Positions 185 to 5,197 of a stretch of DNA of 5,234 nucleotides are shown in pieces. The DNA lies in contig JAFNGD010000249.1 of NCBI GenBank assembly GCA_017885365.1, positions 694 through 5,927 on the forward strand. Direction: 5' to 3'. The notes under the pieces are model-generated. The model searched no databases. It was not told the DNA's origin and saw only the letters and a program-made list of their open reading frames with translations. Position 1 is the first letter of the stretch. Each line of letters begins with the position of its first letter. The stretch is from Nitrospirota bacterium (lineage in GTDB: Bacteria > Nitrospirota > UBA9217). The translations under genes and the position numbers were made by a program.

Positions 185-188
<4 letters not shown>
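1..188 (+). CDS. [2Fe-2S] small subunit of molybdenum hydroxylase (IorA type), 3' end only
   Basis: This is the C-terminal part (61 residues, reading frame from position 3, stop TGA at 186-188) of a ferredoxin-like electron-transfer subunit of the xanthine oxidase family. Visible residues include a CGYCQSGQ motif at residues 4-11 of the fragment and [11 protein letters not shown] at 37-47. These four cysteines (CxxC and CxC) are the ligands of the second [2Fe-2S] cluster, held in the helical C-terminal domain and lying nearest the molybdopterin. The plant-type N-terminal cluster domain lies outside the window. The final A of its last sense-stop junction is shared with the next gene (ATGA), which implies translational coupling. 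The pattern is typical of IorA-like small subunits that pair with a separate molybdopterin subunit and lack a fused FAD domain. The natural substrate cannot be read from this fragment. Confidence 0.93.
168..175 (+). promoter_or_regulatory. Ribosome binding site of the large subunit
   Basis: AAGGAGGG lies 9 nt before the ATG at 185. It decides the start of the large-subunit gene: the reading frame stays open upstream to position 11, but that stretch overlaps the small-subunit gene and does not resemble the family. Confidence 0.8.
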
Positions 189-2346
<2,158 letters not shown>

Positions 2347-2347
<1 letters not shown>

Positions 2348-2366
2348 ATCAGTCGGCAGTCGGCAG
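2347..2366 (+). repeat. Left inverted repeat, 20 bp
   Basis: The sequence AATCAGTCGGCAGTCGGCAG matches the reverse complement of 2866-2885 at 18 of 20 positions, and that of 2816-2835 at 17 of 20. Its first base is the last base of the large-subunit TAA stop. It belongs to a run of heptamers continuing to 2382, which read on the minus strand as GACTGTC, GACCGAC, GCCTGCC, GACTGCC, GACTGAT. Confidence 0.7.
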
Positions 2367-2382
2367 GCGTCGGTCGACAGTC
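2348..2382 (-). repeat. Degenerate heptamer array, left flank
   Basis: Five back-to-back 7-mers read on the minus strand (2382 down to 2348): GACTGTC, GACCGAC, GCCTGCC, GACTGCC, GACTGAT. Four of the five begin with GAC. The same heptamer family, in opposite orientation, forms the right flank of the four-helix-bundle gene, which makes the two flanks mirror images. Confidence 0.6.
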
Positions 2383-2414
2383 AGCGATACATGGTTGTTC
2401 GGGCCGGGGGTGGA

Positions 2415-2783
2415 ATGGCGAAGATCGAACGATTCGAGGATATACAAGCATGGCAGAAGTCGAGAACACTGGTCAAGGCCATCTATGACGTTACCGGCAA
2501 GAAGGTTAAACTGAATAAAGATTACGGGCTCAAGGAGCAGATACGAAGAGCATCTGTATCTGTCATGAGCAATATTGCTGAAGGTTTTGCGAGAAGAAGA
2601 GATAAGGAGTTCGGGCGTTTTCTCTCTATTGCACTCGGTTCCGCGGCAGAGGTCCAAAGCCAGCTCTATGTGGCTCTTGATCAAGGCTACATTACAAAGA
2701 AAGAATTCGAGGAGTTATATGAGCTTGCGTCAGAGGCAGCTCGACTGATCAACGGGTTCATCCAGTATTTGAGAACCGACTGA
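2415..2783 (+). CDS. Four-helix-bundle protein of the 23S rRNA intervening-sequence protein (IVP) family
   Basis: The product has 122 residues and is all-helical by appearance. Family landmarks, from memory of the IVP/four-helix-bundle family: FEDIQAWQKS (7-16), the core YGLKEQIRRASVSVMSNIAEGFARR (37-61, with Q42, R44-R45, N53 and E56-G57 conserved), EFGRFLSIALGSAAEVQSQL (65-84) and ALDQGYI (87-93). Members occur in intervening sequences of 23S rRNA genes, as the Avd accessory protein of diversity-generating retroelements, and as free-standing genes of unknown role; this one is free-standing. I prefer the ATG at 2415 because the conserved family start (MAKIERF) begins there. An in-frame ATG at 2391 would add eight residues and has no recognisable Shine-Dalgarno; a G-run at 2406-2410 may serve 2415. 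Base use is AT-richer, with ATA and AGA codons (three AGA in a row at R60-R62) rare in the neighbours, suggesting acquisition. The last codon and stop lie in the first tandem repeat. Confidence 0.88.
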   Translation: MAKIERFEDIQAWQKSRTLVKAIYDVTGKKVKLNKDYGLKEQIRRASVSVMSNIAEGFARRRDKEFGRFLSIALGSAAEVQSQLYVALDQGYITKKEFEELYELASEAARLINGFIQYLRTD

Positions 2784-2891
2784 TTCTCGACTGTCTTTTG
2801 CCCTTTGACTATTGACTGCTGACTATCGACTGATTCTTGACGGTCTTTTGCACTTTGACTACTGACTGCCGACAGTCGACTGATTCTCGAC
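2778..2891 (+). repeat. 50-bp tandem repeat, 2.3 copies, built of heptamers
   Basis: Units begin at 2778, 2828 and 2878, each with GACTGATTCT. Units 1 and 2 match at 43 of 50 positions with no gaps; the third copy is only the first 14 bases (2878-2891). Inside each unit the second half falls into GAC-phased 7-mers (for example TGACTAT TGACTGC TGACTAT, 2806-2826). The array starts within the last codon of the four-helix-bundle gene, whose TGA stop is part of unit 1, and it ends one base before the xdhC GAGG. Confidence 0.85.
2866..2885 (-). repeat. Right inverted repeat, 20 bp
   Basis: CTGCCGACAGTCGACTGATT is the mirror partner of 2347-2366 (18 of 20 positions match after reverse complementing). 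It overlaps the end of tandem unit 2 and the start of the partial third unit. In RNA the two arms could pair and enclose the four-helix-bundle ORF. Confidence 0.7.
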
Positions 2892-2892
2892 C

Positions 2893-2896
2893 GAGG
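2893..2896 (+). promoter_or_regulatory. Ribosome binding site of xdhC
   Basis: GAGG lies 5 nt before the ATG at 2902. It starts right after the last repeat-derived base, so xdhC kept its translation signal despite the repeat array immediately upstream. Confidence 0.55.
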
Positions 2897-2901
2897 TTAC
2901 C

Positions 2902-3747
2902 ATGGATATCTTTGAAGAGATCGTCAGACTGAAAAAGCTCGGCAGGCCGTCCGCGCTCGCGACCATCGTCGAGAGCAAAGGCTCATCGCCGCAGAAGCAG
3001 GGCGCCAAGATGCTGGTGCGCGATGACGGTACGCTCCTGGGCACGCTCGGCGGCGGGTGCATCGAGGCCGACGTCGTCGCCTACGCGCGCATGGCGATGC
3101 AGGACGGCCAGCCGCGCACGGTGCCCTTCGAACTGAACGAGAAGGAGGGCGGGCTGGTCTGCGGCGGAACGGTGATGGTCTACATCGAGCCCCTGTTTGC
3201 CGACCCGCGGCTGGTCATCCTCGGCGCGGGCCACGTGGGCAAGGCCCTGGCAAAGCTCGCCCGCTTTGCCGGCTTCCAGGTGACGGTTGCCGACGACCGG
3301 GCGCAGTTCGCGAACCGCGACAATGTCCCCGACGCCCACGAGATCGTGGTGAGCGAGTTCCCCGAGGTCTTCACCCATGTTCCCATTGACCGCGGAACGT
3401 ATCTTGTCATTGCGACGCGCGGGCACAACCACGATTTCGACGCTGTCCAGGCGGCACTCAGGACCGAGGCCGGCTACGTCGGTTTGCTCGGGAGCAGAAG
3501 GAAGAAGGGCATCCTCATCAATACGCTCAAGGCCGCCGGGTTCCCTCAGGAAGACATCCAGCGCGTCATCATTCCCGTGGGCATTCCCATCGGATCGGTC
3601 ACGCCCGAGGAGATCGCCGTGAGCATCATGGCCCAGATCATCCGGCACAGGAGAGAGCATGCCCCCACAGGTCTCAGCGATCGTTCTTGCGGCGGGGTCG
3701 TCGCGGAGGATGGGTCGCTCCAAACAGCTCCTTCCCCTCGGCCCTAG
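2902..3747 (+). CDS. xdhC: XdhC/CoxI-family molybdenum hydroxylase maturation factor
   Basis: The product has 281 residues. Characterised XdhC binds molybdenum cofactor, works with a sulfurase to obtain the terminal sulfido ligand, and delivers the cofactor to apo-hydroxylase in the cytoplasm. The N-terminal XdhC/CoxI domain shows ATIVESKGSSPQKQGAKM (20-37) and LGGGCIEADVV (49-59), including the conserved C53, then VCGGTV (86-91). The C-terminal Rossmann-like domain shows VILGAGHVGKALA (105-117), TRGHNHD (172-178), GLLGSRRK (194-201) and IGSVTPEEIAVSI (230-242). It follows the hydroxylase genes and overlaps a MocA-like gene, fitting a role in maturing the upstream large subunit. The domain is complete by about residue 252; the last 29 residues are read out of frame across the next gene and look non-conserved, perhaps from loss of an earlier stop. 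Start chosen at ATG 2902 with GAGG 5 nt upstream. Confidence 0.93.
   Translation: MDIFEEIVRLKKLGRPSALATIVESKGSSPQKQGAKMLVRDDGTLLGTLGGGCIEADVVAYARMAMQDGQPRTVPFELNEKEGGLVCGGTVMVYIEPLFADPRLVILGAGHVGKALAKLARFAGFQVTVADDRAQFANRDNVPDAHEIVVSEFPEVFTHVPIDRGTYLVIATRGHNHDFDAVQAALRTEAGYVGLLGSRRKKGILINTLKAAGFPQEDIQRVIIPVGIPIGSVTPEEIAVSIMAQIIRHRREHAPTGLSDRSCGGVVAEDGSLQTAPSPRP
3649..3655 (+). promoter_or_regulatory. Ribosome binding site of mocA inside xdhC
   Basis: AGGAGAG lies 3 nt before the ATG at 3659, within the xdhC coding region. It supports ATG 3659 as the true start and an internal or coupled initiation. Confidence 0.6.
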
Positions 3748-4279: not shown

Positions 4280-5197
4280 ATGAAACCGGTCGGATTCGTC
4301 TACGATGAGGTGTTCCTCTACCATGAGCCTCCGGTCTGGCATCCGGACTCCCGGGACCGGCTGATCAACATCATCATCACGCTCAAGGGCGCGGGCCTCT
4401 GGGACAAGCTCATCCACATCAAACCGCGCAAGGCAACGCCGGAGGACCTTGCTCTTGTCCACACCCCGGAAAACATCGAAAAGGTCAGGAGCCTCGGCGC
4501 CGGGGAGCTCGACCCCGACACCTTTACCTCCGCCGAGAGCTTCGATGCCGCGTCCTATGCCGCCGGCGCGGTGATGGAGGCGGTGGAACAGTGCCGGAAC
4601 AACGGCATGCGGCGGGTCTTCTGCGCTGTCCGGCCGCCGGGCCATCATGCCGAAGCAGACCGCTCCATGGGGTTCTGTCTCTTCAACAACGTGGCCGTCG
4701 GGGCCCGTCACGCCCAGCGGGTCGGCTACCAGAAGGTCTTCATCATCGACTTCGATGCCCACCACGGGAACGGCACCCAGCACATCTTCGAAGAGGACGA
4801 CACGGTCTTCTATTTCAGCACCCACCAGTATCCCTACTATCCCGAGACCGGCAAGGACATGGAGCGGGGAAAAGGCAGGGGAGAAGGGTATACTTACAAC
4901 GTCCCGATCCTGGCCGGGTCGGGCAACAAGGATTACCTCACCGTGTACCAGGACATTCTGCCCGGCTTGGTCCAGCGGTTCGGGCCGGACATCATCCTGG
5001 TCTCCGCGGGCTACGACATCCACGCCAACGACCCCCACGCGAACATCCGCGTCACCCACGAGGGCATCCACGGCATCGTCCGGAGCATCCTGACCTGCGC
5101 CGATGTCCCCATGATCTTCGTCCTCGAGGGCGGGTACGACCTCCCGTCCCTGTGCGATTCGCTGAAGATCACGATCGAGGAAATGATGAAGGCCTGA
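4280..5197 (+). CDS. Histone-deacetylase-fold zinc amidohydrolase (HDAC / acetylpolyamine amidohydrolase / AcuC superfamily)
   Basis: The product has 305 residues, the length of a bare HDAC catalytic domain. The family removes acetyl groups from amines, with zinc-activated water. All catalytic landmarks are present: WHPDSRDR (20-27); RPPGHHAE (118-125) with tandem histidines H122 and H123; FNNVAVGA (135-142); DFDAHHGNGT (157-166) supplying zinc ligands D159 and H161; SAGYDIHANDP (242-252) supplying zinc ligand D246; and LEGGYD (282-287) with Y286, the transition-state tyrosine kept in class I, IIb and most bacterial enzymes. The protein should therefore be active. There is no signal peptide, so it is probably cytoplasmic. 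Bacterial relatives act on acetylpolyamines or other small acetyl amides or on acetylated proteins, and some are linked to acetoin use; the substrate here cannot be told. It lies 33 nt after mocA on the same strand, but no established link to molybdenum enzymes explains the position. The start at ATG 4280 has no well-spaced Shine-Dalgarno. Confidence 0.92.
   Translation: MKPVGFVYDEVFLYHEPPVWHPDSRDRLINIIITLKGAGLWDKLIHIKPRKATPEDLALVHTPENIEKVRSLGAGELDPDTFTSAESFDAASYAAGAVMEAVEQCRNNGMRRVFCAVRPPGHHAEADRSMGFCLFNNVAVGARHAQRVGYQKVFIIDFDAHHGNGTQHIFEEDDTVFYFSTHQYPYYPETGKDMERGKGRGEGYTYNVPILAGSGNKDYLTVYQDILPGLVQRFGPDIILVSAGYDIHANDPHANIRVTHEGIHGIVRSILTCADVPMIFVLEGGYDLPSLCDSLKITIEEMMKA

Follow-up and report, generated by a model that had tools for sequence, protein, structure and literature searches.

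S23 genes with their own inverted tandem arrays appear to be dropped as units into tiny gaps between bacterial genes

Why should an S23 gene stand between two protein-coding genes of an operon? S23 proteins have long been known from rRNA intervening sequences (IVSs) and have no known function (PMC4990558). The window analyzed here, a stretch of 5,234 nucleotides from a Nitrospirota bacterium, holds such a gene between the large subunit of a molybdenum hydroxylase and an XdhC-family maturation factor (the iorB-xdhC junction), and its surroundings end in near mirror images of each other. An earlier note on this DNA had read the unit as a free cassette with mirror-image ends, possibly a non-autonomous element mobilised in trans.

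The cassette in the window

The features at this junction are the following.
185..2347, + strand: upstream neighbour, molybdenum hydroxylase large subunit (PF02738, PF20256)
2347..2382, + strand: left arm, tandem CAGTCGG-type heptamers; includes the inverted arm 2347-2366
2350-2382: left tandem array within the left arm, period 7 (CAGTCGG)
2415..2783, + strand: S23/IVP four-helix-bundle protein, 122 aa (PF05635, TIGR02436)
2777..2891, + strand: right arm, GACTNNN-type heptamers in a 50-bp tandem duplication (2.3 copies); includes the inverted arm 2866-2885
2805-2831: right period-7 array, TTGACTA-type heptamers, inside the 50-bp duplication 2777-2891
2893..2896, + strand: retained xdhC Shine-Dalgarno GAGG, read from the sequence and found upstream of xdhC in L115-L118 too
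2902..3747, + strand: downstream neighbour, XdhC-family maturation factor (PF02625, PF13478)

The ORF at 2415-2783 matches PF05635 (23S_rRNA_IVP; E 3.8e-38, 130.4 bits against a cut-off of 33.8) and TIGR02436 (E 7.3e-36, 122.7 bits against a cut-off of 24), in agreement with the IVP-family four-helix bundle that the earlier note had placed inside the unit. A longer start at 2391 appears in the ORF list; since both the family match and the closest relatives begin at about 2415, it is the less likely one. Among S23 relatives, 2gsc and 2rld have solved structures, and the solved relatives form a ring (PMC4990558). The window gene differs from that of L001, at the orthologous junction, at 20, 14 and 65 first, second and third codon positions (NG86 dN 0.165; dS 3.45, saturated), a pattern by which the protein is judged to be under purifying selection. 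Its GC content is 46.6%, whereas the two flanking genes have 63.8% and 64.8%; S23 GC lies below that of its own locus in 153 of 160 cases.

Between the arms, S23 is the sole protein with a family match (the antisense frame 2349-2684 lay outside the search). Neither a transposase, as would lie between the ends of an insertion sequence, nor a reverse transcriptase was found among the five proteins searched in the 5.2-kb window, and an Rfam scan of the window gave no rRNA match at the gathering threshold; within this scope, the earlier note's claim that rRNA and reverse transcriptase are both lacking holds. The protein belongs to a four-helix family related to Avd of diversity-generating retroelements, and the bAvd model matches it weakly (21.3 against a cut-off of 40); unlike Avd, it has no reverse transcriptase beside it among those five proteins. 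The layout resembles a 23S rRNA IVS in its sense S23-family ORF between complementary ends and in its patchy occurrence. It differs in lying in a protein operon without rRNA (no Rfam match at the gathering threshold places the window, or any of 20 S23 loci, inside a 23S rRNA gene) and in having tandem arrays that are mostly private to each copy.

The inverted arms at 2347-2366 and 2866-2885 are complementary at 18 of 20 positions (90%), exactly as first reported, and these 20-mers are the edges of tandem 7-bp arrays. The left-arm unit type is also found in L001, and the right arm, from 2777, overlaps the last S23 codons. The hydroxylase stop (TAA, 2345-2347) and the xdhC ATG (2902) bracket the cassette, and its described fit between that stop and the xdhC Shine-Dalgarno holds. 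Taken alone, the inverted repeat is marginal: the best self-inverted segment of the junction scores 15, the 95th percentile of 100 shuffles (15.05; maximum 22). Flank-to-flank complementarity in the window is 16, above the threshold of 15 that random blocks and other genes rarely reach. The RNA fold of the junction beats 97 of 100 shuffles (z −2.18) with both arms paired. At the orthologous junction in L001, the self-inverted score is 20 against a null maximum of 17. The case rests on relatives; with these included, comparison makes a convincing case that it is beyond chance.

Paired arrays around S23 genes in other genomes

A protein search with the window S23 returned 6586 homologues at E 1e-3, and scanning genome contigs yielded 539 confirmed relatives. 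We analyzed the best 80 of these 539, which by record title come from many phyla, a sample biased toward near relatives of the window's S23. A search for possible vehicles found matches at 1e-5 in 25 of 72,556 plasmid records and in none of 50,697 phage records.

Complementarity was scored as the best ungapped segment of left against right flank (match +1, mismatch −1; threshold 15). Across 79 of the 81 loci (L005 and L052 were left out for N runs or short flanks), S23 flanks score at least 15 in 45; among random blocks this happens in 1 of 271, and among other genes of the same loci in 4 of 229. Own pairs average 17.0, and pairs drawn from different loci average 9.0. The own partner is strictly best among all 79 loci in 20 cases and within rank 3 in 45; it is often not top-ranked because many loci share unit types. 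Among the loci listed, the arm units of relatives follow the same design in other sequence (GAGTTnn / nnAACTC, GGTTTCT / AGAAACC, AAGTCCA / TGGACTT). Counting either side, 70 of the 79 loci have significant tandem periodicity (58 left, 50 right, 38 both; the threshold per side is no more than 1 of 60 shuffles, p 0.033, uncorrected), and 9 have no significant periodicity on either side. Array periods are mostly 7, followed by 8, 9, 14 and 15.

The arms also have a polarity, with GTY on the left and RAC on the right. We considered stop-codon avoidance as a source of this polarity and found it weak: stop triplets per 100 nt number 5.32 in the sense and 3.93 in the antisense of left arms, and 4.00 and 4.73, respectively, in right arms. 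A pattern search with (RGTYNNN)x4 found heptamer arrays to be common in genomes, with a reversed-pattern control equal or higher in several of them.

Genomes with several copies show how far arms belong to their own cassette. Twenty genomes, picked for holding one of the best 80 of the 539 relatives, contain 1 to 17 PF05635 matches each. Of 110 loci, 22 had no match to our own profile; PF05635 coordinates located 20 of them, and the other 2 were excluded. After removal of identical ORFs and short flanks, 109 cassettes remained, 103 of them from genomes with three or more; the set omits several matches at contig ends or in fragments. Own arms score at least 15 in 59 of the 103 cassettes, against 16 of 686 pairs that combine arms of different copies in the same genome. 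The own arm pair is strictly best in 72 of the 103, and the own score is below 15 in 44. Divergent family members behave alike (mean own score 19.6, n = 20). The paralogues L147 and L149, with 73% identity, have own scores of 24 and 25 and cross scores of 11 and 6. Sharing within a genome does occur, as between L108 and L134 (78% identical), whose left arms score 25; the tandem copies L143 and L130 are further cases.

These counts bear on the reading of the cassette as a classical MITE or IS derivative, in which the inverted ends would be terminal inverted repeats for a transposase supplied in trans. Like MITEs, the cassette is short, has inverted ends and encodes no recombinase of its own, and the bare sites and S23-less array remnants described below would also suit such an element. 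However, ends are rarely common to copies of one genome in these relatives, they vary in unit and period, an ORF is present and comparisons of filled with bare sites reveal no target duplication by eye. We consider this origin very improbable. Of the earlier suggestion of a free, non-autonomous element, the moving cassette is supported; a classical element moved via shared terminal repeats is not, in view of the tandem-array ends, the few matching cross pairs and the lack of a visible target duplication.

The arms mirror each other in finer detail as well. Own scores average 22.8, versus 13.1 with units shuffled, and 63 of 91 cassettes lie above all 40 shuffles, in a test set that had been selected on own score. 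By this test, unit order, and not just unit type, is mirrored between arms. Independent expansions of short tandem repeats around an ordinary small gene, with a regulatory use such as attenuation or translational coupling, would leave this mirrored order unexplained, along with complementarity that is mostly private to the locus and bare sites that lack both gene and arms. Such expansions would agree with heptamer arrays lying away from S23 in the same genomes (among the matches listed), with arrays known from other bacteria (PMC4679880, PMC4692102) and with the S23 stop overlapping the next start in 28 of 160 loci against 112 of 1018 controls. Weighing both sides, we hold this explanation to be very unlikely.

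Bare and filled junctions

Comparison of loci brings out the architecture and its recurrence, presence and absence at fixed junctions, and gene plus arms beside different neighbours. At ispF-cysE, we examined 67 of 68 strong CysE matches in the genus of G011 (Nitrospira sp., the source of L041; G081 was left out). The junction is bare in 55 genomes, carries an S23 cassette in 11 and holds another insert (123 nt) in 1. Bare gaps span 15-49 nt, 46 of them 20-30 nt, and filled cassettes span 448-516 nt. The 11 filled junctions represent three S23 lineages: A (L259, L321), B (eight genomes) and C (L318), with identities of 53-63% between A and B and 67-68% between C and A. On a 66-tip gene tree built on about 390 bases, parsimony requires 8 changes.

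The rfbD-rfbA junction adds partial states. Among 30 loci, 14 are bare (20-26 nt), 6 have S23 sequence, 3 have array remnants and 7 have neither RfbD upstream nor S23. The remnants (L345, L352, L353) keep the first S23 codons or less, and the part of the L344 sequence that was read suggests a large deletion. In an alignment of nine loci, the S23 stop lines up with the native ATGA overlap, and the RfbA N-terminus now includes the right arm. Comparison of these junctions shows that bare and filled sites exist and that S23 loss leaves array remnants. When filled and bare sites are set side by side, no target-site duplication is seen by eye, and part of the native gap is replaced by the arms. We also considered that arms had expanded from the target site, as hinted by TGAGGTC in bare gaps and in L259, and rejected it on the rfbD-rfbA arms, which by eye are unlike the bare gap.

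For the window's own junction, XdhC served as the anchor for a comparison across 14 genomes in the order to which G001, the genome of L001, belongs. Nine of these have XdhC, which with the window makes 10 readable junctions. S23 is present in 2 of the 10, the window and G001 (L001 and L112 denote one locus). In L111, the closest relative (XdhC 92%), a different small ORF occupies the gap. The comparison of related junctions proposed in the earlier note favours, as far as it can be run, the mobility that it proposed, yet PF05635 matches occur somewhere in all 14 genomes, including six in that of L111 (G024). Between the window and L001, S23 (77% identity) and XdhC (78%) have diverged alike, so a single old insertion may underlie both. 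At iorB-xdhC, L115, L119, L113 (just) and L118 (another repeat kind) have hairpins that exceed the 95th percentile of shuffles; L111, L114, L116 and L117 do not. The small ORF of L111 is cysteine-containing and membrane-like by eye, with inverted arms that do not reach significance. Further downstream, a histone-deacetylase-like gene (PF00850; window 4280-5197) follows the molybdenum hydroxylase maturation genes, likewise in L001, L111 and L113.

Gene and arms appear to travel together. We compared arm words among 162 cassettes: pairs with 70-80% identical S23 and no homologous ORFs within 1.2 kb have a mean cosine of 0.31 (n = 35), against 0.12-0.14 at 30-60% identity and 0.18 for the outer flanks of the 70-80% pairs; pairs at 80-99% identity reach 0.32 (n = 6). 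Protein and arm similarity are correlated (Mantel r 0.28, p 0.0005), more strongly than in the controls (outer flanks r 0.10, p 0.002; GC 0.06). Similar S23 genes with similar arms beside unrelated genes include L020/L027, L034/L037 and L002/window. Together with the bare sites, these cassettes beside other genes uphold the idea of a horizontally moving cassette with mirror-image ends.

Placement follows the operon. S23 and its two neighbours point the same way in 57 of 68 loci (those of the 81 with both neighbours placed within 800 nt), versus 124 of 230 for other genes. The upstream stop lies at a median of 56 nt before S23 and is merged into the first (GTY) unit in 27 of 148 cases, versus 28 of 590; the overlap of the S23 stop with the next start, noted above, is a modest excess. 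From these comparisons, gene and arms seem to enter the short spaces between bacterial genes as one piece, and the element is very probably an insertion cassette.

Right arms are in places read as N-termini of downstream ORFs (L141, complement of 245-1156; L014, L016, L024, L027), giving for instance MTQLTTHHSPLPRKG in RfbA and MQEELFNSQLETRNSKPQPV in L016. In different phyla, S23 cassettes precede the same kind of ORF, with a CLGMTFxNDEARR-like start (L014, L016, L024, L025, L027, L035, L043, L047). This recurrence reflects either a shared junction or co-transfer.

Movement, arm matching and related elements

How the cassette moves, and why its arms stay matched, we infer as follows. An S23 gene with its own inverted tandem arrays would insert as a unit, mostly in sense, between two co-oriented genes, leaving the upstream gene with a retained or new stop and the downstream gene with a retained or new start. 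The S23 protein would bind the paired arms of its own cassette and bring both ends together, and a host or trans-acting enzyme would cut and join. The cassette encodes no recombinase and no movement step was observed; we favour host enzymes for the chemistry. The arms would stay matched either because one is copied from the other, by correction within the inverted repeat, or because both are re-made on movement. We lean slightly toward this account as a whole, an operon-gap insertion cassette whose S23 protein acts on its arms and whose arms stay matched. Its parts differ in standing: action of S23 on its own arms is a tentative proposal, and for maintenance of the matching at the DNA level we see the chances as about even.

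The level of matching was approached through mismatches and duplex energies. In 92 stems, G.U-type mismatches number 121 and A.C-type 146 (p 0.14), with no excess of G.U. This comparison is read through the behaviour of wobble pairs in RNA stems; since G.U does not exceed A.C, selection on an RNA stem is not visible in these 92 stems. Among 168 of 188 loci (duplicates removed), the RNA duplex is more stable in sense in 94 and in antisense in 71 (p 0.011), and the own partner is best against about 30 random partners in 52. The slight sense advantage and the RNA fold of the window speak for an RNA role.

The main rival is accordingly an intervening sequence in mRNA. The arms would pair in the operon transcript and RNase III would cut the hairpin and free the S23 part, as in 23S rRNA IVSs, with the flanking messages staying translatable. 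The protein family is the same as in rRNA IVSs. In Coxiella, the IVS carries inverted repeats at its termini and is a substrate for RNase III in vitro; heptameric repeats directly precede the S23 ORF, and the cut falls at the first of them (PMC4990558). Co-orientation in operon gaps, the slightly more stable sense duplexes and the pairing of the window arms in the best RNA fold all agree with this reading. Against it are the G.U counts and the lack of an rRNA family match in the window or the 20 S23 loci. We judge it unlikely and favour DNA-level copying between arms, although both could be partly true.

Should the operon-gap cassette be right, it would link the S23 proteins of rRNA IVSs with intergenic heptamer arrays, which so far have no agreed source. 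It would offer S23 a candidate substrate, the arms of its own cassette. It would also describe how operons can acquire genes, and in some cases new N-termini, with no recognisable recombinase involved.

A second gene family has a comparable layout. GxxExxY genes (TIGR04256) occur in all 10 genomes searched. In 27 of the 30 loci L200-L229 (three fragments were left out; the ORF was chosen by motif, and L209 is probably mis-picked), flanks score at least 15 in 20, against 4 of 54 same-genome cross pairs. Their arms are by eye mostly of the CACAGAGRC, ACACGGATG or CGCAAAGGC kind and resemble the window-junction repeats in L113 and L119. As judged from these flanks, this is the same architecture around a protein unrelated to S23, with inverted arrays that are mostly locus-specific. 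It is conceivable, though doubtful, that S23 and GxxExxY together form one widespread transposase-free class of cassettes, defined by the structure and not the sequence of paired inverted tandem arrays that are private to each insertion and re-matched at the DNA level. In that case, rRNA IVSs, together with some or all of the unexplained bacterial heptamer arrays, would be special cases or fossils of this class.

Known heptanucleotide arrays, of which the cyanobacterial STRRs are another set, are like those described here in being intergenic 7-bp tandem arrays near starts and stops, and unlike them in that window-type arrays form both ends of a gene cassette. They include TAACTGA in Beggiatoaceae, cyanobacteria and Bacteroidetes (PMC4679880), and, from PMC4692102, the Xanthomonas unit GGGAATC and the Nostoc unit GGGGA(C/T)T. 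The text of these two papers that was searched contains no match for S23 or helix bundle. Among the titles and abstracts listed, a scope that lies short of most subscription papers and preprints, none links S23 genes to such arrays except the Coxiella IVS paper. Convergent inverted pairs of heptamer arrays have been counted, with 70 cases in Xcc and 75 in Xac (PMC4692102). In our own set, contigs of G016 and G020 that have no listed S23 match bear heptamer arrays, some of them as facing plus/minus pairs about 40-110 bases apart (G020:C35, G016:C132).
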